Assembly: GCA_022376465.1 (NCBI GenBank)
Contig: JACDTU010000014.1
Location: 248,001 to 312,000, forward strand
Direction: 5' to 3'
DNA length: 64,000 bases
Source of the DNA: Cubamyces lactineus
Lineage: Eukaryota > Basidiomycota > Agaricomycetes > Polyporales > Polyporaceae
Shown here: piece by piece, positions 1,387 to 53,915 of the stretch
How the letters are laid out: every line of letters starts with the position of its first letter
Numbering within the stretch: the stretch's first letter is position 1
The notes under the pieces: model-generated
What the model was told of the DNA's origin: nothing
Database searches by the model: none
The model's input: the letters and a program-made list of their open reading frames with translations, nothing else
Program-made: the position numbers and the translations under genes

Positions 1387-2549
1387 TTACATCAGAAGAT
1401 CCCCCAAACGGTATCTCCTAGCGCGGAAGTGGAACTCCAGGTATCCCTACAATAGGCATCCGTCATTCATCCCATCCCCTCTTACATGTGGGGCATGTTG
1501 TACTCACCATCAAGTAGCTACGCAGGATGGAGGATAGCTCGGAGTCTGAAGCGGTAAGTTCTTGCACCTGGCCTATCGTCTCCAGCGTCTCCTCCGTGAG
1601 TTCGCGAAGCACGACCAGGGGAGCCTTCCGTTCAGCCGCGGCGCGAAGGTGGACGTAGTTATCTGTCTCGCCAGCGAGCCACTCTTTGTAGAATGAGAGC
1701 CTGCGGTTAGGTTCAGTATCAACGTTCGCCGCATGACAGCCTGCCGTGATCGACTCACACATCGCTGTATCCCAACACAAGGTGTCCATGACATGGTGAG
1801 AATGCGCGTCAAAGCCGGATGCAAGTCAGTACTCACTTGATTGCGTTTGTATATCGTTCGATCGCTCTGAATGGGAAAGGGAAGCATAAGATGTCGCGCC
1901 ATGCAAACTCTGCGAATGACACTAACGGTATGAGCTGCAAATAGAAGTTGTCCGAAGGATCTCGCCATCCCTTTACGAAGATGAAGAGGGCATATGCAGC
2001 TCCAATCCCTGTCTTCAGACGCAGGAAGGAAGGGTACATGGTCGCTCCGGGGGCGATAGACATGTCCTTGGCCGTGAATTCGATGTACATTCCGATGATG
2101 GCCTCGACGCTCTTCGAGTTGATCGTATCGGCACTGAGGAGCGGATAGTACTCGTACATGGCTTGGAATTGCTGCACGATGCGCGTGAGGACCGTGTCCT
2201 GCAGATCTTGTCGGGCGACAAATCTGCGCACGAATTCTCCCAAGGCCTCCAGATCGCGATGCCCGAGGTCGTCGACGTAGACCATGTACGTCGTGTAGAC
2301 AGCGATGAGGAGCTGATGTTCGTAAGAAGTATGTGCGTAGGCGGACTCCGCGATGGTGCAGCATGTGTCGTTTAGAGCATCGATATATGCGGCGCTGAGG
2401 TTGGCGTCCCAGGACACGATCTCGTCTCTGCACTCCTTCCTAAGCCGAGCATTGACTGGCGTATGGAGAGATCGGTAACGCAGACGCGCCACAAAGTCGC
2501 GCAGGATGCGCTTGACCTCGACGATGGATTCCTCCGATGCGCCTCCCAT
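1387..2549 (-). CDS. TRI5-like terpene (sesquiterpene) synthase, copy 1
   Basis: Class I terpene cyclase of the trichodiene synthase-like family (TRI5 type). Such enzymes ionise a prenyl diphosphate, usually farnesyl diphosphate, with Mg2+ and cyclise it in the cytosol; the product cannot be read from sequence. Exons on the minus strand: 2549-1927, 1866-1837, microexon 1764-1759, 1700-1508, 1446-1387, giving 303 residues. The first metal-binding motif is YVDDLGHRD (Asp 93-94). The second, N-D-x-x-S-x-x-x-E (Asn218, Ser222, Glu226), exists only if the 6-nt microexon is included. The C-terminus has the basic RRYR motif typical of TRI5 proteins. The start is the ATG of MGGAS, where the frame aligns with copies 3 and 4; an upstream exon is possible. 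It is the first of three same-strand paralogues. Product and native function are unknown. Confidence 0.85.
1759..1764 (-). other. 6-nt microexon of terpene synthase copy 1
   Basis: Minus-strand CGATGT lies between an acceptor (GGGATACAG) and a donor (GTGAGTCG). The introns on either side are 72 and 58 nt. It encodes the rest of Asn, Asp and two bases of Val in the NSE motif, keeping phase 2 to phase 2. Confidence 0.85.
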
Positions 2550-4161
2550 GTCGTCCAGAGGTACCGTCTGAGAGATCGGGGAGACAGGGGAATCGCATAC
2601 ATTCCCTGAGCGAATGGGAGTTACGCTGAGTGCAAAAAAGGATAAGTTGACAAGTCTCAAACCAGGGAAGGTCAAGATATTTCACCTATCGGGGCTCATC
2701 AACGGCCGCAGAGACCCTTTCGCAGTGGTGACGTTAAGCATCGGAAGGAGTGATAGGAAGTGGGAAGTACGGTGAGTATTAGCCAAAAGCGACACACGAC
2801 TGCGGCCTTATAGGGCCGCTAGCGTCTCTGCTCCGCCACGCTACCCTCGCTTCAACCGCGATTACACACGGCAATGTGCCCATGCAAGGTTATGGGACGT
2901 ATTGCTATCGGAGGTTGCAGAGTAGCAGGGAAGGTCATAGCCAACGCGCAGGGATGGTTCATGACGAGAGACGCCGCGAGCTGAGTAAATTCTTCGCCGT
3001 CACGGTCCTCAGTCGGTACGAAGAGGGTGGTGGTGCCATAAGCTAGTGGAAGGTTTGCATACTTGATGTGCTTCTACAGTTCGGAAGGGTGTGAAGATAC
3101 AATTTCTGCAAGTATTTTCACCACCATGTGGTACGAGCTTCGTTCAGTGAATCGACCATACGCATACCGCGAAGATAACGTACCGACTCCGCAGTGTCAT
3201 CCATGGTACTGGAGATGAACCCAGCAATGAGCGCTGAAGGACACCGGACGACGTATTCCCGGTTTGGATTTTCAACTGTACAGCTCGGAGTCAGCAGGTC
3301 GGACAAGATGAAAGTCTGGATCGCCGGGGCTAGCGGTGAATGGAACAGAGAACTTCCATAACAGGCGCAGGAAGTACTACTCCTGCAAATACGTCAAAAT
3401 ACGGTGATGACATACCCGTTACCGCGAGCCTAGCGCCCGTGTCAGTTTGGGCTCAGGCGCCAGGGCCCAGCATTGGTCTTTCAGTCTCTCAGGCTTGTCT
3501 TCTGTTCGGCTACTTCTGCGCGTATCGTATCCTTCAATGTCCTGACGCACACCGATATCGCGACATGGAACCTGCATTGACCGGCGTACACGCGCATTCA
3601 CTCCCGCGAATACGCCTATCATTGTCATGAAATCGATCTAAGAGTCCGTTCAGCGGGGAGAATCAATTCGCATCTGGGACTCGCTGTTTTCTCTACAGCG
3701 GAGTATCTGACTTCAACTGCTCATTGCATTCGCTCAGATACTCACATAAGAAAACATCCGATTCCCACAGTCGGGCGATTCCTCCCGCTCACTGGATCCC
3801 AAGTGAACTCAGATCAATGCTGGAAGGACCCGAATGAGAAGACTCGTGCCAGCCTAGGATAGGAGGAAGAATGCTGAAGTCGTACGTGCAAAGACAACGT
3901 GCTAGCATGACGCCACACCTGGCCGCCAGTGTAGATCTCAAATTCGAAGCGCCATCGGGCTCAATTCAATCCCAAGGACTTCGGACCGGTTATACGACAC
4001 TTCAAATACAGCCAAAGTACATCTGGTTGCCCATCTACGTGTTCTTCGTTTTGTGGTTCAATCTCTTGGGCCATCGGGGGACGGCCCCAGATTCGGCAAC
4101 CCTAACGGAAGCCATACTCGGTATGATTTGATGATTTCAACTCTTTGGGCCGCTTGACGCT
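2550..4161. other. intergenic, nothing recognised
   Basis: Spacer between terpene synthase copies 1 and 2. Several short frames (3118-3306 minus, 3871-4131 plus with a hydrophobic stretch) have no recognisable family or splice partners. Decayed gene remnants cannot be excluded. Confidence 0.4.
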
Positions 4162-5527
4162 TCAGGCACAGAAGCCCAGCTCCGCCAGGCGGTAGCGCGG
4201 AGTCCTCAGGTGGAATTCCAAGTAAGACTGAAACACGGGTGAGTGGACAGGTACGACGGGCTATTTGAGGATTCAGGGGGGTTCGAACGGAACACCTACC
4301 TGCATGTACTTGTCCCAGAACGCCAGCAGCTCCGGGTCTTCGGCGAGAACCACGTTGATCCTCCTCGCAGTGTCTGATGCCTCATCGACGAGGTCCCGGA
4401 GGACGTGCTCGGTGGACTTTTGTTCAGCAGACGCGCGGATGTGCACGTAGTTGTTCTTTTCGCCCGCTAATTCTTCTTTGTAGAACGAGAGGCTAGCACG
4501 GGGTCAGCATTGGATGCCGGCTGCAATAAGGCGACCTCAATGAAGCACGTACATGTCGCTAGAGGATGAGAAGAGTGTCACCAGTCAATACAACATATGA
4601 AGCAACGCTGAGTAAGAGGCACGTACTTTGCCCCCATCGTCCAATGGTCGAGCTCACTAATTCAGGTGCGATAAGCGTGTATGCCCCCCAGGCTTGAGAA
4701 GACAGATCACGTACGGTAGAATCTGGAGGTACGACTCCGGCGCGCACTTCCAGGTGTTGGGGAAGAGGAAGTGCGTAAAAGGGGCGCTGATGCCCGCACG
4801 AAGCCGCAGGTATATGGGGTAGCGCGTCGCTGCGGGCCTGATCTGCATCTCCTTGGTGCTGCACTCGATATAGTTCGCGGATAGCGCGTCGAGGGTGCCC
4901 GTGATGATCGAGTCCGCGCTGAACGGGGGCCAGTACTCGTACGCGCGCCGGAGGAGCCCAGCGAGGCATTCGAATATCTCCCCCGGTTGTTTCTCGCCTC
5001 GGACAAAGCGGCGGGTGAACTCCATCAAGGCGCCCGGGTCGTACTCGCCGACGTCCTCGGCATAGAACATGCAGGCCGCGTAGAGCGCAATGTACTGGCG
5101 ATGTTCCGGAGGTGCGTGCGCGTACACGGTCTCGACGTAGATTGAGCTGGCGTTGATAGCCTTGTCGAGGAATTTCGGGCTGAAATTGACATCGAGGTCG
5201 GCCTTCCACTTGGCCATTTGCACGTGAAGCCAATCACGGAGTCCACCGTCGTGTACGCTTTGGGGAGCCTGGTATCCGCACTGGCTCAAGAGGGTGTCCA
5301 CGCAGTCTTGCACCACGTGCAGCGGGGTAGCCTGGAACATATATATCCTTACTCGTGTCATATATCCAAAGAGTACATTACTCACATCTTGGAGTAGGTC
5401 TTCGTTGTGGTAGTACTTCAATAAGCTATGCTGCAGACTTGCGCTAAGTTCGTAATCAGGCGGGTGAACATCAGCTCAGCATATCGTGCAAGCAGCATGA
5501 ATCAATGAGAAGGGCATACCTCAACAT
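4162..5527 (-). CDS. TRI5-like terpene (sesquiterpene) synthase, copy 2
   Basis: Second TRI5-type class I terpene synthase. Minus-strand exons: 5527-5520, 5443-5386, 5331-4715, 4656-4627, microexon 4558-4553, 4492-4300, 4227-4162, for 325 residues. The first metal motif is YAEDVGEYD (Glu114-Asp115, with Glu in place of the first Asp). The NSE motif (Asn238, Ser242, Glu246) is completed by the microexon. The C-terminus has PRYR before the stop. The internal exons of 30, 6 and 193 nt match the other copies exactly in length. The first two small exons (8 and 58 nt) are inferred from splice sites and an open frame, so the N-terminus is less certain than the rest. Substrate is probably farnesyl diphosphate by family; product unknown. 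Confidence 0.85.
4553..4558 (-). other. 6-nt microexon of terpene synthase copy 2
   Basis: Minus-strand CGACAT between acceptor CCTCTAG and donor GTACGTGC, with introns of 68 and 60 nt. It encodes the Asn-Asp of the NSE motif plus two bases of Ile. Confidence 0.85.
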
Positions 5528-7131
5528 TGCTGATACACCGTAGCTGTTCACGAGCTCCAGTGTCAGGGTAGGAGCGGTGGTAGATACGACGGTCCCAGTG
5601 TCGAAATGGTAGGATGCTGTTAATGTGTTGGGAGGTACGAAGCTGGTTTTATATCTTGCAGCAGACACATGCTAACGTACATACACGTCGTTCAAGATCC
5701 TCCCCACGCCGAATCCAGTATAGAGAAGTGGCATACCAAACAGTTGCCCCGACGCATTCATACAATCCGTCATCGCGTCATCACCGCGGGTCTCTCAATG
5801 CGATCAAGGCTATACAGACAGACACCAAACCTACGGCGCTATAATGACAGCAGACACCCAGGGATCATCCTCACAGCGAGTGGCATGCGACCAGTGACAC
5901 TGTATGAGATACCAATGCTCGCTGTTCCTGAGCAGCCTCATAAGGTAGGGGATCTACTTACAAAGGTTTTGGGGTGCGTGTCTACGCATGGCACGGCGCA
6001 CGTATTCGTGTATTGCCCTGAGGTGGTTGCTGACGGCGGGGTCACCATCCAGGCGAAATTGTCAGCCTTTAGTGACTAAAACAGGGCATTCTGTTTCCCT
6101 GAATCGCGCATGGACCATTGTCTCTTCTTCCTGTTCGGTGCGATCAGGTACATTTCCTGCGGACTGTACTGCACCGGTGCAGCACGAGGTGGACTCGGCG
6201 GCGACTACCGATCACACTTGACGGCGTTCCGTAGCGCGAAGGCAACCTGCAGTACAAGTTGCACAGCTCGAATGGAGTTAGGCATCAGATCTTAGCCACT
6301 TGTCTGCGGTATGGTGAGCGTAGGAATGGACTAGCATCCAAACCGGTACTTGTGTGGCCGATGGCTAACGCCAGTGTATCGCTACGTAGACTCCGGGTCT
6401 TTGTGTCGTCCAGTATGTGTGGCACCGTGACTTGAACCGCGCGCCTGCCGACAGACAACATGGTTCATCATTGGTAGTACCCGACTCCAGCGGGCTCTCG
6501 CGCCTAGCGGTTCATCGGTCAGCGGCACCGGCCCGCAAACAGATAGTAGAAGCAGCTTCACCTCCGACTTGGATGCACGGCCTTCTGGGAGGTTGACTGA
6601 ACCATGTACGCTTCGCCTTCAAGCTTCACCACCGTGCCCGGAGCATGGGCTCGCCAATTGGCCAGACACGACCCGGGCGCCAGCGACACGCCACGAGGAC
6701 CTATCGTCCATAGGCAACTCCGCATACCGCAACGTCGATGTCGGGAAGATGCACGGCGCCGGGTTGCATAGGTTGAACGTGCGAGCGCTCCGGGCGCATT
6801 CCAACTCCGATAATCACGCAATGCGGATCCCTAGGTAGCAGGCAGCGCACGGCGACTGACGGCGGTATTAGGCAGCCAGCACGTCTTCCGACTCCGGTAG
6901 TCGCGATATGTGCAGAGGTGCACACGAGCGTTTATTCGGTGCGGTAATCGATGAGACATTGGTACTTCTGTTCGGTGCGACGCAGGCAACATTTCGTTTC
7001 TAGCGGACCCGAACTACAATAGCCGCGCGGAGCTCAAGATGCCCATCCCCGACTTCTTCTCTACCATGACGCCCACTGGCATAGTGGGAGATCCCAGCGA
7101 GAAGCCCATGGCGTACCTGGGCAACCCGCGC
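5528..7131. other. intergenic, nothing recognised
   Basis: Spacer between terpene synthase copies 2 and 3. Only short frames without family similarity. Two short stretches near 6130 and 6968 share a CTGTTCGGTGCGA core, too little to call a repeat. Confidence 0.4.
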
Positions 7132-8451
7132 CTAATCCGTCAGGCCGAGCTCCGAAAGCCGGTAGCGCGGGGCCTTCACCGAAAACTCCAAGAAGCGCTG
7201 TCCCGCGGCGTCCATTCATGAGTACTGAGCACTTGGCGATATGCATACGCCGAATGAGCCGGAACGACGCTCACCTGCACGTACCCGCGCCACAATGCCG
7301 CGAGCTCGACGTCGTCGTCCACCAGCCTGTCGAGGCGTTGTGTAGTCTCCACGATTTCGTCAGCGAGCTTCCGGAGGATGACTAGAGGCGGGAGGCGTTC
7401 CGCTGCTGCCCGGAGATGCACGTAGTTTGTAAATTCCTGCTCCTTCTCTTCCTTGTAGAACGATAGCCTGGAATGTCATATGAGCGCTTGGGGTTAGAGC
7501 ATGAGGATCGTGTATTTTGTGTAAACATGCTTACACGTCACTGTAGACAAATGAATGCATCCGTTAAGAATGATGTGAGAAGCGAGGGCCGGGCGGCTAC
7601 TTACTTGACGGCTCCAATCCAGTATTCCATATCACTTGAAGAACATCAAGATCAGCCGACATAGAGGCTATTCAAACTCGTGCTCACGGAATCAGTTGCA
7701 AGTACGACTCCGCCGTGTTGCGCCATCCCCGCATGAAGACGAAGGCGATGAAAGGGGGATCGATGCCCGACCGCAGACGCAGATAGTCTGGGTAGCGCAC
7801 CGCGCCGGGCTTGACGACCATGTCGCGCGTCGAGTATTCGAGATAAAAGGCCGAGATGGCCTCGAGGGTCCCGATGATAATAGCATCCGTGCCGACGTCC
7901 GTCCATAGCTCGTGTGCGCACTTGACCAGGTTCACGAGGCGGTCCAGGATGGGGTTGAGCTGGGGTTCTCCATTCATGAAGCGACGTGGAAACTGCTTGA
8001 GCGCCTCAACGTGGTGCTGACCAATGTCGTCGGCGTAGAGGAAGTACGCGGTGTACCGAGCAGCGAAGAACCGGTGCTCCGGAGAAGTGTGCCTGTAGGC
8101 GGTCTCTGCGAAATGAGAGCCTGTCTCGATGAAGCACTCTGCGTGCTTGGGGGACAGTTCGACCTCCCAGGACTCAATTTCCATGAGCATCCTGTGCCGT
8201 AACTCTTCGTCAGGCGGGGTCGTGGGGTTCTCGTATCGGCAACCGTGAAGGAAGTCCAACATGATCGACCGTATCTCCTGGTCGGTATCTATAGTCATCT
8301 GTCAACAACGTCAGAATGCATACAGTTGTCTGACATGAAGAAGACGCCATCTTACCGCTGCATTGTTGGTCAGGGAAGAATGTTCAGTGACGCCTTGGCT
8401 TTTGCCGCCGTAGTAGCTGCTGGTCCTGGCGCACAGTGAGCATGAGAACAT
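7132..8451 (-). CDS. TRI5-like terpene (sesquiterpene) synthase, copy 3
   Basis: Third TRI5-type class I terpene synthase. Minus-strand exons: 8451-8356, 8298-7688, 7634-7605, microexon 7540-7535, 7467-7275, 7197-7132, for 333 residues. The 96-nt first exon is optional: it joins in frame at a good donor (GTAAGATGG) and adds 32 residues, but translation could also start at the ATG right after that intron (8298), giving 301 residues, close to copies 1 and 4. Metal motifs: LYADDIGQHH (Asp122-123 in the long form) and an NSE motif (Asn246, Ser250, Glu254) completed by the microexon. The C-terminus has PRYR. Catalytic role as for the family; product unknown. Confidence 0.85.
7535..7540 (-). other. 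6-nt microexon of terpene synthase copy 3
   Basis: Minus-strand TGACGT between acceptor GTCTACAG and donor GTAAGC, with introns of 64 and 67 nt. It encodes the Asn-Asp of the NSE motif plus two bases of Val. Confidence 0.85.
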
Positions 8452-13628: not shown

Positions 13629-13692
13629 GCGCTTGAAGGGGTTAGCGCCTGAAGGGGTTTGCGCTTGAAGGAGTTAGCGCTTGAAGGAATTA
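13629..13692. repeat. 16-bp minisatellite, four units
   Basis: Four head-to-tail units of the form GCGCTTGAAGGGGTTA, with a few substitutions per unit, plus a partial fifth unit (GCGCC). Direct reading of the sequence. Confidence 0.85.
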
Positions 13693-23996: not shown

Positions 23997-24704
23997 ATGT
24001 CCAACTCGCTCACTCAGCTCGTTCCTGTCCTTGACGGTTCGAACTACCCTCAGTGGGTCGACCTGATGAAGGCTTACCTTCAGCAGCAGGAGGTTTGGCT
24101 CGTCGTTGAGCCTCCTGAGGGCATCGCTGCCCCTACCCTTGAGGAAGACGGTAGAAACCGGAGCGAAGTCGTCGCCTGGAATCAGATGATGATGAAGGCG
24201 ATGGGCTGTATTCGCCTCCGGCTCAGCCCCGAGGTGAGTAGCCTTGTGAAAGACAAGGCGACTCCCAAGAAGCTGTGGAGCGCCCTTAAGAGCCTCTACG
24301 GGACTACCTCGTCGATGGGTGCCTATAGTTTCTATAAGGCCGCCACCAGTGTGCGCATCCCGTCGAATGAGCATCCCGGCCCTGCGATCGCTAAGATCCA
24401 AGGGAACCTCGACCAACTGAGCGGTGCGGGGATTAACATCCCTATGAACCTGCGTGCCTTGATGATCCTGGATGCAGCGCCGCTGCGGTATGAGACCGCA
24501 ATTCAGCTCTGTCTTAACGACAATGAGCTAGCAGACCTGACCACTTCTGATGCTCGGGAAGCACTTGTGGCTTCTTGGGAGGCGTCGGTGACAAAGGGTA
24601 ACCGCAAAGTTGGCGAGGCAAAGAAGCTCAGCGCTGTCAAGCGCAAGGGCAAAGATCCTGCCTTCAAGCAGCAGCAGCAGCAACACCGCAACGGTGACTC
24701 GTAG
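23997..24704 (+). CDS. gag: copia Gag polyprotein part
   Basis: Structural part of the element, 235 residues to a TAG at 24702-24704. It begins with the LTR-copia Gag pattern (LDGSNYPQWVDLMKAYL, a UBN2/DUF4219-like region) and ends in a basic, Gln-rich tract coded by CAG repeats. No CCHC zinc knuckle is seen, unlike most copia Gags. The frame continues past the TAG, without shift, into pol, so either read-through or a CAG-to-TAG mutation applies. Gag would assemble virus-like particles in the cytoplasm. Confidence 0.85.
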   Translation: MSNSLTQLVPVLDGSNYPQWVDLMKAYLQQQEVWLVVEPPEGIAAPTLEEDGRNRSEVVAWNQMMMKAMGCIRLRLSPEVSSLVKDKATPKKLWSALKSLYGTTSSMGAYSFYKAATSVRIPSNEHPGPAIAKIQGNLDQLSGAGINIPMNLRALMILDAAPLRYETAIQLCLNDNELADLTTSDAREALVASWEASVTKGNRKVGEAKKLSAVKRKGKDPAFKQQQQQHRNGDS

Positions 24705-27700
24705 CAGCAGCAGCAGAAGGGCAAGGGCAAAGCTCGGCGAGGGAAGCGTAAGGGTCAGAAGTCTTCAGACCATGACCACGCCCACCTTGCTTCCACCGCG
24801 GTCATCTCTGACGGTCCTACCACGACTGTCGATCCGCGTGCGCTTCTGCGCAAGCCTGTCCGGGCTAACAGCCCTGAGGGTGAGTCGAAGTATCCTACCC
24901 TCAAGCGTGCCTTCAACCTTGCTCGCGACCTCGACATCACGCCCAGTCCTGAGCGCATTCGCACTTTGGAAAGCGTAATTAAGGTCAGCGACAAGGGGGA
25001 GGGTTCTAGCCAGATCGTCGAGATCGACTCGGACAGCGCGGACAGTCACTCGTCGAAGCGGACTCGCCTTACCTTGGCTGAGCGCATCGACTGGACTGAA
25101 AGGGATGACGATGCGGAATCCACTGTCTCCTTCGGCTATGAAGATGACGACGTGGACATGGAGATCGCCAATGCGGCTGGTCTCTATGAGCAGTATGACG
25201 AGCAAGTGCGGTCAGTACTTCTCACTCTGCCCTACAGACAACACGCTGATGCGCTTCTTTCAGCAGCAACATGTAACAGCGTGGATGGATCTGCGGTAGT
25301 TAGATTGCGGAATCCTGTCTGTATTTCATTTGAACAATGTAGTCATTCTGTTTTATTCGCGGAATGTGCTCGTTGCAAGGGCAAGAGTAAGGCTGACCAA
25401 AATCCTCAATGGATGCTTGACTCGGGCGCGTCTCTCCATTTCACCAATGATATGGACGATTACATTGAGTATGCGCCGCTAAGTGAAGACATTGTCGTCC
25501 ATACTGCGAATGGCGTTGCCTTTGTCAAGGGATCTGGGACTGTTCTTCTGAACTGTCCATTACCATCCGGCGGTCACACGACAGTGCGCATTGCACCTGT
25601 CTACTTTATGCCAGACCTATCTATCCGCCTTCTCTCTATGGGAGAATTCCTTCAGAAAGGAATGCGAGTAAGCGGAAATGCTGAGAGAGTCAGCATCTTG
25701 CAAAGATCAGGAAAGCCATTCCTGGTTTTTCATCCACGCACTCCCAATGACACTGTCTACTGTGTCGAGTCGCTTCACGCGAGGGATGCGTTGTATATCT
25801 TTCCAACAGTCTGTAACCTTGATTACCAGACCATGCACCGTCGCTTGGGTCATCCTTCCAAGGATGTGCTAAGGCATGCAAGGGAACACACTGCAGATTT
25901 CCCTACCATTGAGTTCCCTAAGGAGGAACCTCTATGCCGTGGATGCGCAGAAGGGAAGATGCCCTTACGGTCCTTCCCGCCATCCGTTCGACGCGCTTCT
26001 CGTCCTTTTGAGATTATTCACTCGGACTTGAAGTCATTCCCCATCGACTCCTACCACAAATACAAGTATGCGATCATGTTTCTCGATGATCATACATCGT
26101 ATGCTTGGGCTGTGTGTCTGCGCTCCAAGGATGCTGCGCTCACAGCGACAAAACACTTCCTTGCCAACGTCGAGAATCAATTCAAGACGAAGGTACAGAA
26201 GTGGATGTCTGACGGTGGAGGAGAGTACAAGTCCAAAGCATTTGATGCATTGCTTAAGGACAAAGGCATAGAGATACTCCAGAGTGTTCCGCACCAGCCT
26301 CAGCAGAATGGCCGTGCTGAACGACTCATGCGAACTCTTTCAGACAAGGCTGAAGCTATGCGCTTTGACGCCTGTCTACCACAATCATGGTGGGAATTTG
26401 CGATTGAGCACGCTGTTCATGTGTATAACCGCACGCCTTTACGCCGCTTGAAGTGGCGAACCCCCTATGAGGCGTTGAATGGTGAAGCTCCATCTATCAA
26501 ACACTTACGTGTGTTTGGGTGTGGTGCCTATGTGCACTTACCGCCTGCAGTACGAACCAATAAGCTCTCGCCTAAGTCAGAACTTATGGTGTACATTGGG
26601 GTCGCCCCCGGTAGTCATGGCTTTCGGTTCATGCGGTCACCCAATAACGTTATATTCACGTCAGCACATGCATTGTTTGACGAGAATATGTTCCCTAAAT
26701 GTCCCACCAACCAGCGACGTCGTACCTCTCGAATTGATGATCCAGAGGACGAAAACCCATCTGACCATGAACCAACCGTTCCTTCGGGCCCTGATGATGA
26801 CGATGAGCCACGTCATCCTCCCCACCAACCTCTTGAAAGGAGACAGGAGCAGGAGCATGACGATGCACCTGAGATGCCACCCCGTGTGCGCACTCCTAGT
26901 CCGCCGCCCCGTGTGCCGGAATTGCCGCCTACGCCTCAGAAGCCTAGGCGTGCAACACGTGAGCGGAAAGTACCAGTTCGCCCAGGCAATGTGTACGGAG
27001 AGTCACGGCATCCCGTACAACAGTTCAAGGAGATTGAGAAGCAGGGGGAGTGGAAAAAGATTGTTGGTGAGCAGTCGGGTCGCTCCCGTGCCACTGGCAA
27101 GTCTCGGTCAGAATCTGTTCCCGGCAGTAGTTCTGCACCACCCGCTCCAAGCGACATACCTGCTCCATCCGCCTCGGGAGAAGCGTCTGGCAGCGCACCT
27201 GATAATGGCTCGGGTCACTCTTCAGACGAGGTCGAAGATGCCCTGCGCGCCATGCATGATGAACTGGCCCTGGCACAACTATGCCGGGAAGGGGGAGTAG
27301 GACTTATCAACTATCTGCTCATGAAAGCAGTGCCACCAGTTGATGAGAATCTGCCCGATACGTCCAACGTTAGAGAGTGGACTTACCGTGACATCGCTCG
27401 CCTACCACCGGCTGAGCAGAAGGAATGGAAGGCTGCTTGCCGTGAGGAGCTAGAGGCACTCCGACGGCGAAAAGTCTTTGAGTTGGTTGATCGCCCTAAA
27501 GGGCGCAAGGTCATAAAGAACCGATGGGTATTCGACGTCAAATCTGACGGTCGAAAGAAGGCCAGGCTTGTAGCCAAGGGTTTCTCCCAGGTCGAAGGTG
27601 TCGACTACGACCAGATCTTCTCACCAGTTGTTCGCTTTGAGACTGTGCGGCTTTTGCTTGCACTCTCAGCACTTGAAGACTGGTACATCACTGGACTCGA

Positions 27701-28913
27701 CGTCCGTAATGCTTACCTTTACGGAAAGCTTGACGAGGAGATCTACATGGAACAACCCGAAGGCTTTGCAGCCAAAGGCCAGGAGCACAAAGTCCTCCGA
27801 CTACTACGTGCTCTATATGGACTTAAGCAAGCAGGTCTTGCGTGGTGGCGCACCCTGAATGAGTCCATGAAAGAGCTAGGCTTCAAACGCTTAGTCTCTG
27901 ATGCCGGTATCTTCGTCTTTAGGGACGAGAACGGCAGCATGGTCATCGTCATTGTGTATGTCGATGACGCCCTCTTCTGTGGACGGAACAAGGCACTTGT
28001 CAATAAGATGAAGGCCAAGTTCATGGAGAAGTGGGAATGCAGAGACCTTGGCGAAGTCAAGGAATTCCTGCGTATGCGCATCCAGCGTAGAGGTCGAACG
28101 ATCCGTATTGATCAGTGCGCCTACCTGGAGAAAGTGCTTCTGCGATGCGGTATGCAGAACGCGAAGCCTGCGCCTACTCCACTGCCGGCAGGGTATCACC
28201 CAGAGCCAAATAGTCAACCAGTGGATCCCATTCTCCGCTCCAGGTTCCAAACCGTCATTGGATCCTTGCTGTATATCATGCTAGGCACTCGACCTGACAT
28301 CGCTTTTGCCGTGACCAAACTATCACAGTTTGCTGCGAATCCTTCGCAAGAGCACCTCACTAAAGCGCTGTATATCTGTCGCTATCTTCTCGGGACCAGG
28401 TCTTACTCTTTGGTCTACGATGGTGCTAGTGGTCTCGGCCTGTGCGCATGTACCGACTCTGATTGGGGATCTGACCCATTCACTCGACGGTCACAAACAG
28501 GATATTTCCTGAAGTTGGCTGGAGGGATTTTCAGCTGGCAATCTCGTGCTCAGAAGACAGTTGCACACTCGTCAACTGAAGCCGAGTACATGGCAATCAG
28601 CGATTGCTCTCGCCAAGTAGTCTGGATCCGCAACCTTATGAGCGAGATCGGCTACAAGCTAGCTCCCATCCCAATTGCGGGAGACAGCCAGGGATCGCTC
28701 TTTATGAGCTCGAACCCTGTGACTGAGAGCCGGTCGAAACACATCGATATTCGCTACCATGCTATTCGAGAGTATATCGAGAATAAGCAGGTCGAAGTGT
28801 TCTTTGTTGACGGCTCGGATAATCCAGCTGACCTCTTCACCAAGAACCTGGGACATGTCAAGTTCACCAAGTTCAGAGGGCAACTTGGCCTTGAGTTCTA
28901 TGACTTGGCCTAA
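24705..28913 (+). CDS. pol: copia Pol polyprotein (protease, integrase, RT, RNase H)
   Basis: Continuous frame after the gag TAG, about 1400 codons, no internal stop. The aspartic protease motif LDSGAS is near 25417. The integrase has an HHCC zinc region (HRRLGHPS to CRGCAEGK, about 25840-25960) and a D-D-E core (HSDLK near 26020, SDGGGEY near 26205, NGRAERLMR near 26310). Reverse transcriptase starts near 27440, with GLDVRNAYLYG, LYGLKQA and the YVDD catalytic box near 27957. RNase H covers about 28450-28620 (CTDSDWGSDP, SSTEAEYMA). The first conventional ATG lies well inside, so expression needs read-through of the TAG or an intact gag-pol in a sister copy. No chromodomain. Confidence 0.92.
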   Translation, partial: QQQQKGKGKARRGKRKGQKSSDHDHAHLASTAVISDGPTTTVDPRALLRKPVRANSPEGESKYPTLKRAFNLARDLDITPSPERIRTLESVIKVSDKGEGSSQIVEIDSDSADSHSSKRTRLTLAERIDWTERDDDAESTVSFGYEDDDVDMEIANAAGLYEQYDEQVRSVLLTLPYRQHADALLSAATCNSVDGSAVVRLRNPVCISFEQCSHSVLFAECARCKGKSKADQNPQWMLDSGASLHFTNDMDDYIEYAPLSEDIVVHTANGVAFVKGSGTVLLNCPLPSGGHTTVRIAPVYFMPDLSIRLLSMGEFLQKGMRVSGNAERVSILQRSGKPFLVFHPRTPNDTVYCVESLHARDALYIFPTVCNLDYQTMHRRLGHPSKDVLRHAREHTADFPTIEFPKEEPLCRGCAEGKMPLRSFPPSVRRASRPFEIIHSDLKSFPIDSYHKYKYAIMFLDDHTSYAWAVCLRSKDAALTATKHFLANVENQFKTKVQKWMSDGGGEYKSKAFDALLKDKGIEILQSVPHQPQQNGRAERLMRTLSDKAEAMRFDACLPQSWWEFAIEHAVHVYNRTPLRRLKWRTPYEALNGEAPSIKHLRVFGCGAYVHLPPAVRTNKLSPKSELMVYIGVAPGSHGFRFMRSPNNVIFTSAHALFDENMFPKCPTNQRRRTSRIDDPEDENPSDHEPTVPSGPDDDDEPRHPPHQPLERRQEQEHDDAPEMPPRVRTPSPPPRVPELPPTPQKPRRATRERKVPVRPGNVYGESRHPVQQFKEIEKQGEWKKIVGEQSGRSRATGKSRSESVPGSSSAPPAPSDIPAPSASGEASGSAPDNGSGHSSDEVEDALRAMHDELALAQLCREGGVGLINYLLMKAVPPVDENLPDTSNVREWTYRDIARLPPAEQKEWKAACREELEALRRRKVFELVDRPKGRKVIKNRWVFDVKSDGRKKARLVAKGFSQVEGVDYDQIFSPVVRFETVRLLLALSALEDWYITGLDVRNAYLYGKLDEEIYMEQPEGFAAKGQEHKVLRLLRALYGLKQAGLAWWRTLNESMKELGFKRLVSDAGIFVFRDENGSMVIVIVYVDDALFCGRNKALVNKMKAKFMEKWECRDLGEVKEFLRMRIQRRGRTIRIDQCAYLEKVLLRCGMQNAKPAPTPLPAGYHPEPNSQPVDPILRSRFQTVIGSLLYIMLGTRPDIAFAVTKLSQFAANPSQEHLTKALYICRYLLGTRSYSLVYDGASGLGLCACTDSDWGSDPFTRRSQTGYFLKLAGGIFSWQSRAQKTVAHSSTEAEYMAISDCSRQVVWIRNLMSEIGYKLAPIPIAGDSQGSLFMSSNPVTESRSKHIDIRYHAIREYIENKQVEVFFVDGSDNPADLFTKNLGHVKFTKFRGQLGLEFYDLA

Positions 28914-38348: not shown

Positions 38349-38514
38349 ATGTATGGTGTAGGTCTGATAGAGGGTATATGATACAGTATAATACATACAA
38401 TCAATCAGCGAATGGCATAGTAATACAGATGCACGCTGAAGGTTCTCGTGAGGCTTTCTCCACGTCGATGCTGAGTTCGGATACGCACCATAGCAAGCCT
38501 GTACTCCCGGCACC

Positions 38515-43828: not shown

Positions 43829-44916
43829 GGCGGTGGTGTGGGTGGTGAGGAGGTCTCGCGGCGATTAGGCTGCTTTACGGTTCAAAGGAGGAGGGCAAGG
43901 AGAGGAAGAGGAAAAGGCGACAGGGGTGTCGGTGGGAAGAAGCTGAGGCAAGGGCGCCACCACTGTTGCTCCACCTTTATACACACGAGGACATGCGAGG
44001 GCGTGCCGCCGTGGCACGAACTGCATCCTGTGTGGTTTGGTGTGTTGGATTGACTGAATTAGGGAAGATCAGGCTTGCATCAGGCCAAATGAGTGACCGG
44101 ATGAACGACGTACGACTGGGATCAGGAACCCAGATCACCCTACAGTTGGGGTTGGAAATCATCGCGCGCGTGCGGGTCGCGGACGCCGTGAGTTCGCGGA
44201 AGGAATCCTGGCAATGACAGTCTGAGACTGCGCACGCCGTCGAAGGCGCGGCGCGGCGACCTCCACGGAAGAAGGCTCTAGGCACGGCGAGTTCGTCCGT
44301 AACTTACCACTTGCCGCCATGCATGGTTCAGGACCTAGATGAAACAGCGAGGTCCCAGTGTCGGAAACGTGCACATGCGAGTCTCCACCAGGCGTTACTC
44401 GGCCTAGTGGCTGTACCGATGAGGTCCGAGGTATGGCCACGGCCTACCACCGCCCAAACATGTACGCAAGTGAGACCAGACGCGTAACAATGGAAGGCGG
44501 GCGATGAATACCGGCAAGTACAGGTTAGCCAATCACTGCTGGCTAAAGACATGTCGCCTTGTGCACATATTCAACTAGGTCGGACTCGGACTCCGCATCC
44601 CCAGCTGGCAATGGGCCGGCATCGTAAACCGTGAAGGGCAAGAACTGCAGTAGCCAGATTCAACAGAAGGTCATGAGGCCAAAGGAGAACTCACATCCGC
44701 GAACCCATGGGGGAATGTCTTCTGTGCTTCCTTGGCCAGTGCTCACACGGAAAGCGTTTCTAGTCACAACTTTATCCACCATCACGAGGTCATTCACGTT
44801 GCACCTTCGTACAACATCCGAAGAAGTCCGGGCATCGGCATACAAGAAAGTCCACGATGCGAATTGCGAAAAGCTAAAACACAGTACATTGCACGAACCG
44901 AATGCCAAGATGAAGC
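43829..44916. other. intergenic, nothing recognised
   Basis: Promoter region of the secreted-protein gene and 3' flank of RPT5. No gene supported. Confidence 0.45.
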
Positions 44917-46574: not shown

Positions 46575-47092
46575 GGTGGACGATGAGGAGGGAGGCGTTG
46601 CCGGTAGCAGCCCGAGCTCGCGCGTTGTGCTGGGTCATCCTGCGCGTACGCGTCGCCGTGACGAGCAGTCACGCGATCTGTCACAGGCACTATGTCATCG
46701 TTTAGACGCTCAAATCGGGGGGCCGGCTTGCCGCGAAACATATCCATCAGTCGCATATATGATATAATGAGAGCTCTGACTGAGTACGCCGGTCGCCATA
46801 CGACCACAGGATGGAAATATAACCCGCGTTGAAGGAGAGAAGGAATGGAGGACACGTCCTGGACGTGTTTGAATAGGTGAGAACGCGTTGTGGAAGCGGG
46901 AATGAACGCGTCATATGGCGTACGTGCACGCGAGAACGCCAACGACTGGGAGGACTGGGAGGGTGACCATCTGCAGCCATCTGCAGGGCCTCTGGACCTC
47001 TGACTGAGACCCGCCCGCTGACGCATCGCTGATCCCACCGTCTTGCAAGCCATCGATTCGTCGTCCACGTTGTCTCTTCGTACTGTCGCACG
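46575..47092. promoter_or_regulatory. divergent promoter region RPT5/DPP5
   Basis: 518 bp between divergent starts. No motif I can name with confidence; frames inside lack splice structure. Confidence 0.4.
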
Positions 47093-50000
47093 ATGCGGGT
47101 GCCTCCAGGCTTTCCCGCGTCCGTCCTCGGGCTCGTTTCTCAGGTTCCTCTACAACCACCGTCGAACTTGACCAGTATGGCTGCGCCCGACTTCGTGTTT
47201 GAAGAAGGTCCTCATATCTTCTCGCCGAAGGACCTAGTCCAACTCCCTAGAGCTCTTGAGGGGGTCGCGAACGCCGTTGGAGATCTCGTCTTTGTGCCCG
47301 TGAGCGAGTATTCGCTCAAGGACAAGAAGTGCGTATGCGCGAGTACAGAGTAGATGTTGCAGCAGTATCTGATATCGGAGCAGGAACTCAAAGTCGATTC
47401 ATGTTGCGGCGGTCGAGTCCACCATTCTACCCTTGGATATCCCCTTAGCTAACGGTGGCGAAGCCTTCTGGCTCGACTCTCGCACCCTGGCGCACGCCGT
47501 TGTCGAAGGCTCTGACAAGGACAAGGTAGTCAACCTCTACGCAATGTCCCTCAAGGTCGATACAGGTTCGCCCGCCATTACGACCTTCCCCGAGTCCCCT
47601 GTGCACATCGGCAAGTTCCCGACGTCGACTGCGACCAACTTCCGGTACTCCGCCGAGGCAGGTGTCCTCGTCTTCTCTGATTACGTCCACGCGGACGGCG
47701 ACCTCAAGAAGGTCAAAGAGAACGATGAAGCATGGGAGAACCGAGGTGACACCGCCTTCGTGTACGATGAGACGTTCGAACGGCACTGGGACACATGGGT
47801 CGGGCCGAAGAGAACGTCTCTGTTCAGTGTCAAGCTCACTAAACAACCTGCGGGCAAATGGGCCCTCGGAGATGAATATGTCAACCTCCTCAAGGGCACT
47901 GGACATGTAAGTTTACGCTACTTGCGATGCAGCCGTATGGAGAACTGAACCGGCCCATCAGCACGCCCCGGTGGAACCGTTCGGAGGCACAGATGACTTC
48001 GATGTATCGGAGACTCATGTCATCTATACTGCCAAGGATCCTAAGCTACCGAAGGCGTGGCACACCAAACAGAATGTCAGGTCATCTAGCACGCCGTATG
48101 CTATCCAGGGCTGACATCTGTGCACTTGTTCGACAGATCTACATTGTGGACATCAATGGCAAGTCTACCCCGAAGGAGCTCACCTCGGGCAAACAGGGAG
48201 CTACCCACAACCCAGTGTTCAACACTGCAGGGGACAAAGTAGCCTGGATTGAGTTGGACCAAGATGGCCATGAATCCGACCGGTAAGAGCAGCATATATG
48301 CGTGAAAACCTTTTGTTCACAGGATCGGCAGCGGAAAGCTTGTCATCTATGATCTTGAGAAGGACGTCCGCTTCACGGTCACCCAACATTGGGATCGCAC
48401 CGTCAGTTCCATCGCGGTATGTGTCGATGTATGTGTGTCCACCCACATACTGAATCAACTGTATCTTAGTTCGCCCACGACGATAAGACGGTATTCTTCA
48501 CTGCCGGGGATATTGCACGCATCAAGATATTCTCCCTTCCCGTTCCCGAAACGCCCGCGGAGAGCACGACCGACCCAGACCTCCCTTCGGCTTTCCGTCA
48601 GCCCCGCGAGCTCACTTCCACTGGTGCCGCGTCCGGCATTCAGCCACTCCCCAATGGCCGTCTCGTATTCACGCGCTCGTCCCTCACTGCTCCCAACGAC
48701 GTCTACGTCCTGCGTCAGTTGAACGAGAGCGGGACGCCGAAGATCGACCAGCTCACCCAGTTCTCCGCGACGGGCCTGAAGGGCAAGAACCTTTCCGAGG
48801 GCGAGGAGTTCTGGTTTGAGGGTGCGGAAGGCAAGAAGATACACGGCTGGGTCATTAAGCCTCCGGGCTTCAAGGAGGGTGAGAAGAAAAAGTGGCCTAT
48901 CTTGTTGGCCATCCATGGTGGTACGTACCAAGGAGTTTAGTGGCTGGGTTGATGGACTGATCATCTTTACAGGTCCCGAGGGTGCTTGGGAAGACCAGTG
49001 GTCCAACCGGTGGAACTTGAATGGTATGCATTCCCATGGGTGCTTCTTGATCTAATGTTCTAAAACGTAGCTCTATAGCGTTCGCTCAGCAGGGTTACGC
49101 TGTAGTTGCTATCAACCCGACCGGTTCCACATCCTACGGTCAAGGTGCGTGGGATTCGCTAATCAGTCAGGGTTAGACACAGACTGAATGTTCTACAGAA
49201 TTGACAAACGCGATCAAGGAGGATTGGGGTGGCAAGCCCTTCGTTGGTGCGTTCACTTCCCTGCATATTTGCGAAGTCAGGATGTGTATGTCAATGTACG
49301 CTGTGAAGACTTGCAGAAGGGCTGGAAGCATGTCCTTGAGCACTACCCTGAGGTTAGTCTATCAGTTATTCGAAATGCGGCATCCTATCTCAATTATACC
49401 AGCTTGACCCTGACCGTGCTGTCGCTGCCGGTGCAAGCTACGGTGGTTACGCCATTAAGTATGTACTTTGTTACCATTCCGGAACGTTGTCGATATTAAC
49501 TCTGCCCAAGCTGGATTCAAGGCCACCCCGAGTTTGGCTTCAACTTTAAAGCGCTTGTCTGCCACGATGGAGTAAGCGTGTTTCATGTTTTAGGAAGGCC
49601 TGAAACTCACCCTGCCCACAGGCATTCGGCGCCCAGTACCACGGCTACTCTACCGACGAGCTGTTCTTCGTGAGTGGCTAAGCTAACAACGTACTTGCGA
49701 TAGTTCTGATCGGTCGTCCAGTTCAACTATGAATGGGGAGGACGCCCTTGGGAGCCCCGTGCGCAGGAGGTTATTAAGAAGTACGCTCCTCATTTCTCGA
49801 CGATAAACCAAGCGCTCACACTCGCTCTTTGTAGATATGACCCTATCAACTTCGTAGACAAGTGGTCTACCCCGATGCTTATCATCCACGGCAGCAAGGA
49901 CTACCGCTTGCCGGAAACGGACGGCATCGGCGCCTTCCACGCCCTCCAGCAGTAAGTGACTGAGAGCCTTGTCACAGAAGGCCTTCCTTTCTGACTCAAT

Positions 50001-50193
50001 GGGTGCCATAGGCGAGGTGTTCCGAGCCGCCTGGTCATCTTCCCTGACGAGAACCACTGGGTCTTGAACCATCAGAACAGGTCCGTGATCTCTTGCGTCT
50101 CCGACCCGCTGTGTATTGACTCAGGCCGACAGCTTGAAGTGGCACTACGAGGTGTTCCGCTGGCTCGGCAAGTATGCAAAGAAGAGTGATTGA
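47093..50193 (+). CDS. dipeptidyl-peptidase 5 (prolyl oligopeptidase family S9)
   Basis: Serine peptidase of family S9 (S9C, DPP5 or acylaminoacyl-peptidase like). Seventeen exons from 47093-47328 and 47384-47906 to 50012-50080 and 50133-50193; all introns GT-AG. The product is 747 residues, or 719 if translation starts at the next in-frame ATG (47177). Start choice is open, since neither N-terminus has a convincing signal peptide, which leaves cytosolic versus secreted undecided. After a beta-propeller region (about residues 50-480) comes an alpha/beta hydrolase with nucleophile Ser603 (GASYGGY), Asp688 (HGSKDYRLP) and His720 (DENHWV). Oxyanion region AIHGGPEG. Confidence 0.9.
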
Positions 50194-50565
50194 AGTAAGC
50201 AGAGATATAGCGGAGCATGCAGGGCCGAATGACTCTTCGTGTAATCCGGTCCCGATCGATGTGCAAGCGGAACGTTGCCTGGAATGTAACAGTATTTTAC
50301 CCGTTGCGCGCTTGACTGGCAGCGTTGAAACTTCTTGTCACGACGGTGCGTCCGGCCTACGTTGTTCATGCGCACAGTTCGCCGTCGCCGCTCAGGGTCG
50401 CGAGACGCCTCGTGGTACCACGACGGTGTATATGAGGGACGGGGTACTTGCAACGTCGTTTTGGTTAGCCCTCACTCTCGCTCGACTGTACAGCAGTAAG
50501 TGATCCTACCTACGATACCCATCATTGCAACCCATACTAACCACTCTCACAATATCAGCTGTGAC
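50194..50565. other. intergenic, nothing recognised
   Basis: 3' flank of the DPP5 gene and promoter of the KOW gene. Confidence 0.5.
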
Positions 50566-51715
50566 ATGAATAAGGACCGTTCGTCCGCTGCAGGTTCTTC
50601 TGGAACGCAACCTTCTCTAAAGGTAGAAGATGTAGATCCCGTGTATGTGAGGAACACTCGAAATCAACGCGGAGGGGCAGTTGGCCCGAACCTACTTGCG
50701 ACGTCGAACAACAGTGAGTGCTTTCTATAGATTCGATTTGATCCAGAGGTCATTGATTTTACTACTGCGCAGATAGTTGGGGAGTAAGCCAATCCTACGA
50801 GCACCGAACCACCACGACCTCGGAGGCGGTGGCGGAGGACCTAGATGGAACGGTGACGCAGATACCACGCAAGCGATCCCCCTCACCCTTTCCCGACTTG
50901 TATCCGCGGATCGCGGAGAAAAGAGACCGCAACAAGCGTCTTGACGCGAAGCAAGCGAAGAGAGACCTCACCTGCACTATCGTAGACACCGGCATGTCAA
51001 ACGTCATGGATACCACCGTGAGTGCCGGCGCCGCACGTGTGCCACCGGCGCCTTTGACCTTGGTGTTGACAGGAGGCATTCTCAATTTATCATAATCAAG
51101 CACAGGAGGAGATCTACCAGGTAACGCCCTACCGTTTGATGCAACCACTTCTCTCACAGCGTATTAGGCTAACAATAGTGTTGCACCACCTGCTGCCAAG
51201 GGTGCAGAGCCCGGCGTGCGTAAGTCAAACCGCCCATTACCTCATGTCCATGCGGACCCATTGCTGACAACGGGGCAGAGATCGCATCCGCAGAGTGGCT
51301 CCTGGATCCTGCGATCAGCTCATGCCCCGGCATGCTCGTCGTGGTGCTAGGATCGAGCGCGCTTCATGGTGCTACTGCTTGGCACGGCGGAGATTATGAA
51401 GGCGCGCAAGGTATCGTCCTCTCCGTGCACAACACCGGGGCGGACACTGAATTCTTCCCGTCCACCGCGCGCGTCAAGTTCTTGAAGCCCCTCCACCCTC
51501 CTCTTGACACATTCGCCGTGCCGGTGTCGCTGTTGTGTCCAGTTGCACCGGGCGCTACTGGACAGCAAGCATTGATCATACGCGGCCCGCACAAGGGGAA
51601 GAGGGCGAAGCTGTGGGAAGAGGTGAGCCAGGGCTGGTATGTCTGTGCGGCGTACGATTACTTCGAAGTGGCGCATGAGGACCTAGTACGACTGCTCCCG
51701 TGCGCTGAGAGCTGA
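50566..51715 (+). CDS. stand-alone KOW-domain protein, Spt5-like fragment
   Basis: Five exons, 50566-50713, 50773-51017, 51073-51120, 51168-51219 and 51279-51715, give 309 residues. The C-terminal part has a KOW-like stretch (GQQALIIRGPHKGKRAKLWE) followed by a conserved-looking tail (AYDYFEVAHEDLVRLLP), as in Spt5-type and related proteins. The N-terminal half is charged and disordered (RKRSPSPFPDLYPR, RDRNKRLDAKQAKRD). No NGN domain is seen, so this is not a full Spt5. Such short KOW proteins occur in multiple copies in Agaricomycetes; function unknown. The two short middle exons are the least certain part. Confidence 0.55.
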
Positions 51716-52715
51716 GCTAGAAGTTACCCCTGCCTGTGCTGGAGACACTTTACCCATCAAACTGGAGACCGGCCTTGCGCCGGTCCGTTGTGTATCGGCA
51801 GGTCATCGGTCGCAATTTGTCACTACGCTGATATGTCCGATGCCATGAGAATGACTACTTTGATGGACGATCCCCTCGTCCATGAACAATCCTTGTTATG
51901 CGCTCAGATATTGCAGTTCACTGAGGCTTGTACGATATACCTCTAACCAAACAGCTAACCTCTGACACTCAGGCATATCTTGATCCCATTAGCCATGCGA
52001 CATCTGTCACTTCTCGTGTACGCCTCTGGAACGTGCATTTCCGGGCCTCGAATCTCTCGATCGACACCTAGGCTTGATCGTACACAAGTTTGGCGGTGAA
52101 CCAGCTCCCACTGCCACTACGGGGAGGCACTGCACCGGAAAAACGCCACCATCCGATGTCAATATCGAGGTACGAGTATCATCCTCGTAAATCGGATACG
52201 CGGCTTCCAAGCGCCACCAGGGCGCGGAGCTCAGATAACACAACCTCCGGTGGCGGGGTTATCCCCCTCGGCTCCTCTGGGGACGCTCATCCTCGCTCGA
52301 GGCTTGACGTGCTGGTGTGCGGCTCGGGATCATCCTGCCTCTTAGCGACAGAGCGCAGAGTCGGGGTTTCCGTCAACTTACTGCGGCCGCTGTTTATATC
52401 GCCCAAAGCCGGGCCCTCAGACCGACATGGGGTGCGTACATATAAATACCATGCTGCTGAGCGAGGAATAGCTCAACGCGGCGTCTCGACTTTCAGAGCA
52501 TCCTCATGGCCAGCTACACCCATCTTCCTATGCACCCAAAACTCGAGCTCATGCGGGACGGCCCAAGGCTGCCCGACCCTTACAGGTCAGCCCGCAACCA
52601 TTGTAGCGCGTGCACTCGTGAACCGCAGGCTGACACGTATAATCATAGTGACCAACGCTCAGATGCTTCCTCTCCTGATGACACCTTGACTCAACTCACT
52701 CTACTCACTACGAAG
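51716..52715. other. intergenic, nothing recognised
   Basis: Spacer and promoter upstream of terpene synthase copy 4. No gene supported; a TATA-like TATAAATA occurs near 52440. Confidence 0.45.
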
Positions 52716-53915
52716 ATGGTGTGTGCTACATACCGTCAACTTGAATGTTCGCGTACCGTGGGCCTGACCGAATTCACCAGGATAATCTCGCTTTACAACG
52801 CGAGCAGATCAGCCTTCTCGTTACGGACTTTCTGAAACGTAGCGACTTCCGTGCTATGCAGTCCCCACGGGACGTCGAGCTTCGTGACAAGCTCAGCGTC
52901 GACGTGAACAACTGGGGTGTCGACATTAACCCTTCCATGCTCGAGAAGATGGTGGAGACAAGCTGCTCCTACGCCGAAACCGCTTTCGGGCACACCTCGT
53001 TCGAGCACCGGTACTACATCGCGCTCTACACCGCATGCATGCTCTACGGCGAGGACCTCGGCGAGCACGACCCAGACGCGGTGACTCAATTTGCGCGCCG
53101 GCTTGTCAGGGGTGATAAGCAAGTCAGCCCGATATTCGACTGCCTCGCGGAGCTTCTCAAGCAGGCCCACCTGTACTGGAGCGATGTCGGCGCAGACGCC
53201 ATCATCACAGGGACGGTGGACGCGCTCACTGCAACTGCTATCGAGTTCGCCACCACAGGCACGCCAGTGGCTCCGTCCGCGTTGCGATACCCGTACTATC
53301 TTCGGACGCGGGCGGGCGGTGGCCCGCAGTACACGCACTTCATGTTCATGCGGAGCTGGCGAGAGAGGGCGGACTCGTACCTTCAAATTCTCCCGTGAGA
53401 TCATTCCTCGGTAGTCAATGCGCCTTGGAAGCTGATCTTGAGCTCTCGCAGAGAGATCGAACATTGGACGCTAGGAACCAAGTGAGTTCTCTGCGAATGA
53501 TGCACTGAGAAGTACTCGAATTGACGCCATATCTATAGTGATATGTACGTCGTTGGCATGCTAGCCATCTGATTGCTAGGCACTGATGTCGAGAACCAGC
53601 CTCTCGTTCTACAAGGAAGAACTTGCCGGCGAGACGAGCAACTACGTGCACTTGCGCGCCGACGCGGAAAGCATCTCGCCGTGGGATGTACTACGGCATC
53701 TGACCGAAGAAGTTCTCGATACCGCTCGCAGGATAGATGATATCACTGCCAACGATCCAGAACTGTTTGCCTTGTGGAATCGTTATCTGCAGGTACGCGG
53801 ACTGCAACGCGTTATCGTGATTGAAGTACTAACGATACTTCAGTGTTACCTGGAGTTCTCGGTGAGAACACCAAGATATCGTTTGCGCGAACTCGGCATA
53901 GGGTACGGTCTGTAA
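52716..53915 (+). CDS. TRI5-like terpene (sesquiterpene) synthase, copy 4
   Basis: Fourth TRI5-type class I terpene synthase, 45 kb from the others and on the opposite strand. Exons: 52716-52718 (only the ATG), 52781-53394, 53452-53481, microexon 53539-53544, 53600-53792 and 53844-53915, giving 305 residues. The single-codon first exon is inferred because the acceptor CACCAG at 52780 and the donor GTGTGTGC after the ATG keep frame; an alternative is to start at the in-frame ATG 52745 with a different N-terminus. Metal motifs: LYGEDLGEHD (Glu92-Asp93) and an NSE motif (Asn216, Ser220, Glu224) completed by the microexon. The C-terminus has TPRYR. Product unknown. Confidence 0.85.
53539..53544 (+). 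other. 6-nt microexon of terpene synthase copy 4
   Basis: TGATAT between acceptor ATCTATAG and donor GTACGTCG, with introns of 57 and 55 nt. It encodes the Asn-Asp of the NSE motif plus two bases of Ile. Confidence 0.85.

Follow-up and report, generated by a model that had tools for sequence, protein, structure and literature searches.

A predicted six-nucleotide exon at the NSE motif of TRI5-like terpene synthase genes in Cubamyces lactineus and its relatives

Terpene synthase genes and their exon structure

The window analyzed in this study, a stretch of 64,000 nucleotides (nt) from the basidiomycete Cubamyces lactineus (assembly GCA_022376465.1, contig JACDTU010000014.1, positions 248,001 to 312,000), harbors four genes whose products are predicted to be TRI5-like class I terpene synthases (PF06330). 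Copies 1 to 3 reside on the reverse strand and copy 4 on the forward strand. Each of these genes contains an exon of only 6 nt at the NSE motif. The overall layout is the same in all window copies: a main exon ending with (I/L)P is followed by exons of 30, 6 and 193 nt and by a short last exon, near the end of which RYRL is encoded. The exons are given below; upstream exons and start codons of the gene models are tentative.

Copy 1
1927..2549, reverse strand, main exon with the Asp-rich region VDDLGHRD; its 5' end is uncertain, the T. cubensis relative P0121 being longer at the N terminus
1837..1866, reverse strand, 30-nt exon, phase 2
1759..1764, reverse strand, microexon CGATGT (third base of Asn, complete Asp codon, first two bases of Val)
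1508..1700, reverse strand, 193-nt exon, opening with the Leu that precedes SFYKE
1387..1446, reverse strand, last exon (RYRL) up to the stop codon

Copy 2
4715..5331, reverse strand, main exon; more exons upstream are tentative
4627..4656, reverse strand, 30-nt exon
4553..4558, reverse strand, microexon CGACAT (Asn-Asp-Ile)
4300..4492, reverse strand, 193-nt exon
4162..4227, reverse strand, last exon

Copy 3
8574-8483 and 8425-8356, reverse strand, tentative upstream coding exons
7688..8298, reverse strand, main exon
7605..7634, reverse strand, 30-nt exon
7535..7540, reverse strand, microexon TGACGT (Asn-Asp-Val)
7275..7467, reverse strand, 193-nt exon
7132..7197, reverse strand, last exon

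Copy 4
52506-52585 and 52649-52718, forward strand, tentative upstream exons
52781..53394, forward strand, main exon
53452..53481, forward strand, 30-nt exon
53539..53544, forward strand, microexon TGATAT (Asn-Asp-Ile)
53600..53792, forward strand, 193-nt exon
53844..53915, forward strand, last exon

Two additional TRI5-like paralogues, L026 and L027, were detected on the contig of the window (C6). Protein searches of the whole genome (36.3 Mb, 43 contigs) with copy 4 and L027 as queries yielded at least six genes, all of them on C6. A seventh TRI5-like gene was not found among the best-scoring candidates of these searches, six being a lower bound, and a six-frame search of the genome with PF06330 recovered only two main exons. 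Both additional genes possess the same anatomy, which thus occurs in all six genes found.

C6:246500-248600, L026, hexamer CGACAT, 30/6/193 anatomy
C6:230600-232800, L027, hexamer TGACCT (Leu), 30/6/193 anatomy

According to hand-built models of the six loci, the order of 30, 6 and 193 nt is exact and every one of these exons starts in phase 2. The original prediction, which had been made from the sequence of the window alone, gave the coordinates, strands and sequences of the four hexamers exactly, and its statement that they share one phase between neighbors of exactly 30 and 193 nt was confirmed. Two of its points have to be amended. The microexon is indeed common to the four paralogues, but the set of copies is six. 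Furthermore, the hexamer was said to spell Asn-Asp plus two bases of Val or Ile; Asp is encoded completely, while only the third base of Asn lies within the hexamer, followed by two bases of Val or Ile (Leu in L027). At the consensus junction, AA and YGAYNT are completed by the base with which the 193-nt exon opens, yielding Asn-Asp-(Ile/Val/Leu) and then (Leu/Phe)-Ser-Phe-Tyr-Lys-Glu; in the window copies the product is Asn-Asp-x-Leu-Ser-Phe-Tyr-Lys-Glu. Each hexamer is bounded by AG upstream and by a GT(G/A)NG(T/C) donor downstream, and in the six copies both flanking introns are GT-AG introns of 54-72 nt. With 6 nt between canonical introns at six loci, the element falls under the definition of a microexon as an internal coding exon of at most 15-30 nt.

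The assignment to the family draws on profile, motif and the predicted fold of a relative. Copies 4 and 3 scored 57.9 and 48.7 bits against PF06330 (curated cut-off, 25.2 bits), and for copies 1 and 2 the main exon was enough to exceed the cut-off (29 and 26.1 bits). At the Asp-rich site copies 1-4 carry VDDLGHRD, AEDVGEYD, ADDIGQHH and GEDLGEHD, respectively, with the acidic pair in place and no strict DDxxD. An AlphaFold2 model of the T. cubensis protein P0001, which is 92% identical to copy 4 and has an intact motif, gave template modeling (TM) scores of 0.71-0.88 to chains of SydA, CLM1 and trichodiene synthase. The latter enzyme (TRI5; PDB 1jfa/1jfg) has the same fold and belongs to the same family but is remote, with 17-19% identity in structural alignments. 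The NSE motif NDxxSxxxE is present in all six copies only by way of the microexon, and no gap is needed to align it with NDLMSFYKE of trichodiene synthase. By counting along this alignment, the encoded Asn corresponds to residue 225 of trichodiene synthase, which is in agreement with the predicted location of the microexon at the catalytic site; structure titles (2ps4-2ps6) indicate that this residue is altered in solved mutants. It is established that N, S and E of the NSE motif bind Mg2+, as set out in the available text of PMC10608071 and PMC9948225.

Splice paths, chance and copying

For each locus, splice paths were enumerated that begin at the main-exon donor, which was kept constant, and end at the SFYKE codons, using GT-AG introns of at least 40 nt and at most three introns. 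Out of 74-278 paths per locus, one to three restored [ND][DE]xxSFYKE in an open frame. The hexamer was used as an exon in all 13 motif-restoring paths, one of which at each locus has the 30-nt exon in front of it. The outcome was the same when introns of 30 nt or more were accepted (again 13 of 13) and when GC donors were allowed (14 of 14). We rejected the possibility that the motif is encoded at the edge of a neighboring exon, because the enumeration contained no such path. A twin intron was rejected as well, since each of the introns is canonical GT-AG on its own and they are separated by six coding bases. Branch-point-like sequences were inconsistent, with no YTRAY match in intron B of L026 and L027, and were not used as evidence.

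The hexamers might be fortuitous, each intron containing by chance an AG-N6-GT that spells the motif. When the sequence separating the 30-nt from the 193-nt exon was subjected to dinucleotide shuffling, a motif-restoring 6-nt exon did appear in 17, 8, 6, 22, 9 and 6 out of 3000 sequences at the six loci, that is, in 0.2-0.7% of the shuffles per locus. However, the hexamer occurs at six of six loci in the same phase and between flanking exons of identical length, and 27 annotated relatives (see below) show a matching signature, so that the probability of a chance origin is practically zero. The original prediction had excluded both chance and recent copying, and rightly so in either case. The introns differ in sequence as it had stated: in alignments among the six copies, introns A, B and C did not surpass shuffled sequence (z -2.0 to 2.2); for the 193-nt exons the same test gave z values of 1.1 to 4.7. 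With introns that cannot be aligned and proteins that are 31-57% identical, recent gene conversion or copying was rejected.

As the 30-nt exon, the 6-nt exon and the combined 36-nt unit are all symmetric in phase 2, their skipping preserves the reading frame. Gene models without the microexon therefore look sound, although they lack the Asp of the motif and have its Asn shifted by two residues. Skip products retain an open frame at six of six loci, which would explain why annotation errors have gone unnoticed.

Gene models of relatives and the status of the microexon

Three protein searches, one of them represented by the best 120 of 168 matches, gave 199 relatives. Anchored at SFYK, 140 of them had an intact motif, 23 lacked two residues and four lacked 12 residues, whereas 11 were broken otherwise and 21 had no anchor. 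After removal of the anchorless rows and of one row with 169 residues (limit, 225), 177 relatives remained, which together with the window copies entered a maximum-likelihood tree of 181 rows. The tree was calculated by a quick method with the Shimodaira-Hasegawa-like approximate likelihood ratio test (SH-aLRT) as the only support, and several long branches lie outside the clade described here. All 37 broken models of at least 225 residues fell within a single clade (SH-aLRT 99) of 114 rows, comprising 110 database proteins and the four window copies. Thus, 73 of the 110 database members are intact and 37 are broken at the motif (23 by the two-residue gap, four by the 12-residue loss and ten otherwise), whereas 67 of 67 relatives outside the clade are intact. 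Restricted to NCBI-annotated rows, the broken models amount to 35 of 105 within the clade versus none of 45 outside (Fisher p 9e-7, for rows that are not independent). For these counts, rows were assigned by hand to the clade or its outside, and to NCBI or another source, from the search results and the tree. The 67 intact proteins outside the 114-row clade gave no sign of the microexon; hence, it does not characterize the TRI5-like family as a whole.

Compared to its nearest intact relative, each of the 23 proteins showed a two-residue gap exactly at the microexon-encoded Asp-Ile, Asp-Val or Asp-Leu. By their entry names these proteins come from 17 species. The loss of 12 residues, equivalent to the 30-nt and 6-nt exons, was found in two proteins of Epithele typhae, one of Trametes sanguinea and one of Tulasnella. 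The signature of broken models extends to the two main subclades, of 48 and 66 rows, in accordance with the ancient origin that had been predicted. The simplest reading of these deletions is that the pair of 30-nt and 6-nt exons already existed at the base of the clade and would often be skipped by annotation pipelines. That gene callers miss the exon, as had been anticipated, is borne out by the 37 of 110 annotated members broken exactly there, among them the public C. lactineus model of copy 2 (P0048; 98.9% identity over 265 residues), which belongs to the 23 and skips the hexamer present in the DNA. In P0141, the database model of L026, the 63-nt intron before the microexon is retained. Public models of the other four genes were not among the relatives listed.

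Intact relatives exist for every copy (P0121, P0043, P0047, P0001, P0135 and P0161; 55-92% identical). The motif is also intact in the Ganoderma sinense linalool synthase entry P0021 and in two Trametes versicolor entries (P0127 and P0038), which are named sesquiterpene synthase, have no contig and share subclades with copies 1 and 3. An alignment of 50 relatives hand-picked among the intact ones was not used as evidence, the invariance of the motif therein being partly a matter of choice. As to the earlier assumption that the microexon is under selection, the residues it encodes may plausibly be selected; we do not extend this to the exon as such.

By name, the clade consists of Polyporales, mostly Polyporaceae, and of Tulasnella. 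The families of Cubamyces and Ganoderma were looked up, and most other members we presume to be Polyporaceae. According to a taxonomy look-up, Grifola belongs to the Grifolaceae, Epithele to the Epitheliaceae and Tulasnella to the Cantharellales. Four Tulasnella proteins (P0042, P0052, P0065 and P0039), one of which carries the 12-residue signature, nest among Grifola and other Polyporales. Horizontal transfer or a deep origin are possible explanations.

We regard the hexamer as a real coding microexon, most likely constitutive, that has come down by inheritance within one clade of TRI5-like (PF06330) class I terpene synthases, and we put the probability of this reading at about 0.94. The two flanking introns would be removed one after the other, and the joined exons would rebuild the Mg2+-binding NSE motif on one long helix. 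Inclusion of the microexon would be constitutive, and its skipping probably leads to a loss of enzyme activity.

Alternatively, the public models might be right, the hexamer being skipped always or in the main form and the proteins lacking Asp-Ile or Asp-Val. This would agree with the 23 annotated proteins from 17 species which lack exactly these residues, and some of the genomes concerned may have an RNA-supported annotation. Yet the genomic sequence of all six paralogues has retained the hexamer with both of its splice sites, including that of copy 2, which is annotated without it. The 'skip' proteins have also kept the other features of the enzyme, an RYxL-like motif in 23 of 23 and an Asp-rich-like motif in 22 of 23 (63 and 66 of the 73 intact proteins, respectively). 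Moreover, close relatives differ, as P0121 is intact and P0122 skipped, with end branches of 0.03 each. We thus consider it very unlikely that the models are correct.

The exon could also be a regulated, frame-neutral cassette, whose inclusion would give an active enzyme and whose skipping, or the retention of a flanking intron, an inactive or altered one. The symmetric exons and the open skip products at all six loci are compatible with such a switch, and the 63-nt intron of L026 retained in P0141 is a multiple of three and free of stops in frame. As a precedent, a regulated microexon that affects the protein is known from the filamentous fungus Trichoderma virens (Xlr2; available text of PMC11121469); it differs from the present case in that it has 20 nt, is regulated by glucose and belongs to a transcription factor. 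On the other hand, the skipped proteins lose the register of the motif, and no role is known for them. Regulation of this kind appears improbable to us.

Other findings weigh on either side. Against a constitutive microexon common to the clade, the exon borders in other species were deduced from deletions in annotated proteins. On the supporting side, 46 sesquiterpene synthase complementary DNAs (cDNAs) of five basidiomycete species have been obtained by reverse transcription PCR, 11 of them full-length from T. versicolor; as far as covered by the accessible part of that report, 44 contain an NSE/DTE motif, which is absent in PoSTS-09 and TvSTS-13, both also devoid of the Asp-rich region (PMC9948225). 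Conversely, TvSTS-13, a T. versicolor cDNA without Asp-rich and NSE/DTE motifs, and several candidates that yielded incorrectly spliced, intron-containing cDNAs in the same source, suggest that inclusion of the microexon may be leaky. P0127 and P0038 might be identical to cDNAs from this report. In favor of the microexon, AlphaFold2 predicted a single helix (residues 242-266) spanning the motif in the intact P0001 (mean predicted local distance difference test score, pLDDT, 89.9) and two helices (213-226 and 230-235) separated by a break at 227-229 in the microexon-less P0007 (mean pLDDT 93.2). These models are suggestive of a motif helix that is broken without the microexon; P0001 and P0007 are, however, different proteins.

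PF19086 synthases, possible origin and known microexons

The same genome contains synthases of the family PF19086, of which 16 loci (L003-L010 and L030-L037) covering 26 profile matches (a lower bound) were inspected. A split-aware motif scan settled 11 of them and direct reading the other five. Like the TRI5-like genes, all 16 loci are interrupted by an intron at the NSE Asn; theirs is in phase 0, lies between Asn and Asp directly after Asn (Thr in L033, the motif of which is degenerate, T-D-V-A-A) and is positioned one base further downstream than in the TRI5-like genes. In the adjacent pair L035/L036 (contig C14) a second intron follows 18 nt further on, creating an 18-nt microexon (D-L-C-S-F-N) within the NSE motif. 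Its use was the sole motif-restoring path among 19 (L035) and seven (L036) tried. At the other 14 PF19086 loci no microexon was seen at the motif.

L035:1554-1571, 18-nt microexon, flanking introns of 58 and 67 nt
L036:1593-1610, 18-nt microexon, flanking introns of 57 and 61 nt

These structures suggest that an old intron was located at Asn in both families and that microexons were made twice, each time via a nearby second intron. In the TRI5-like genes, the second intron would have been gained six bases beyond the older one. Alternatively, introns were inserted independently at the same kind of site. One may go further and speculate that the two class I terpene synthase families of mushrooms have had an intron at the NSE Asn in common since ancient times and that microexons arose there repeatedly when a second intron was gained, with 6 nt in the TRI5-like genes and 18 nt in the PF19086 pair. 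Being frame-neutral, the microexon would act as a checkpoint during splicing, at which either an active or a dead form of the enzyme is chosen. We deem this extended scenario unlikely.

Microexons, including predicted ones of 6 bp, are already known; what sets the case described here apart is that it is conserved at a catalytic motif and that it apparently spoils so large a share of the database models. Plant microexons resemble it in being very short, conserved and often missing from gene models, with wrong proteins as a result of the omission. They were, though, identified genome-wide on the basis of RNA (PMC8831610, as far as available), whereas here a single fungal enzyme family was studied through DNA and homologous proteins. 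In the white-rot basidiomycete Phanerochaete chrysosporium, P450 genes have short introns and predicted exons down to 6 bp (2 amino acids), which, going by the accessible text, are scattered over families and restricted to none (PMC1184071). Unlike these, one corresponding hexamer is conserved here at a metal-binding motif across paralogues and probably also across species. For Lignosus rhinocerotis, coding sequences of sesquiterpene synthases had to be revised by RNA sequencing, no exon being named in the available portion of the report (PMC5468996). Searches of the open-licence PMC literature, judged by titles and the beginnings of abstracts, gave no report of this microexon in terpene or sesquiterpene synthases.

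About one third (37 of 110) of the clade's database models are broken at the NSE motif, most likely by annotation error. Since a complete NSE motif can serve as a selection criterion in genome mining for terpene synthases (PMC11122449, available part), working enzymes may be discarded or synthesized in a probably inactive form. A simple rule, AG-YGAYNT-GT between exons of 30 and 193 nt, could flag such models. The genes are also well suited to studying the splicing of a 6-nt exon in a fungus and the reason for introns at the same catalytic residue in two gene families.

Besides the terpene synthase genes, the window contains frames of a Copia-type retrotransposon with gag, integrase and reverse transcriptase domains (23997-28913), located between the terpene synthase copies, and on the reverse strand a frame with a MutS domain III (56760-57356), which probably belongs to a gene of the MSH family.

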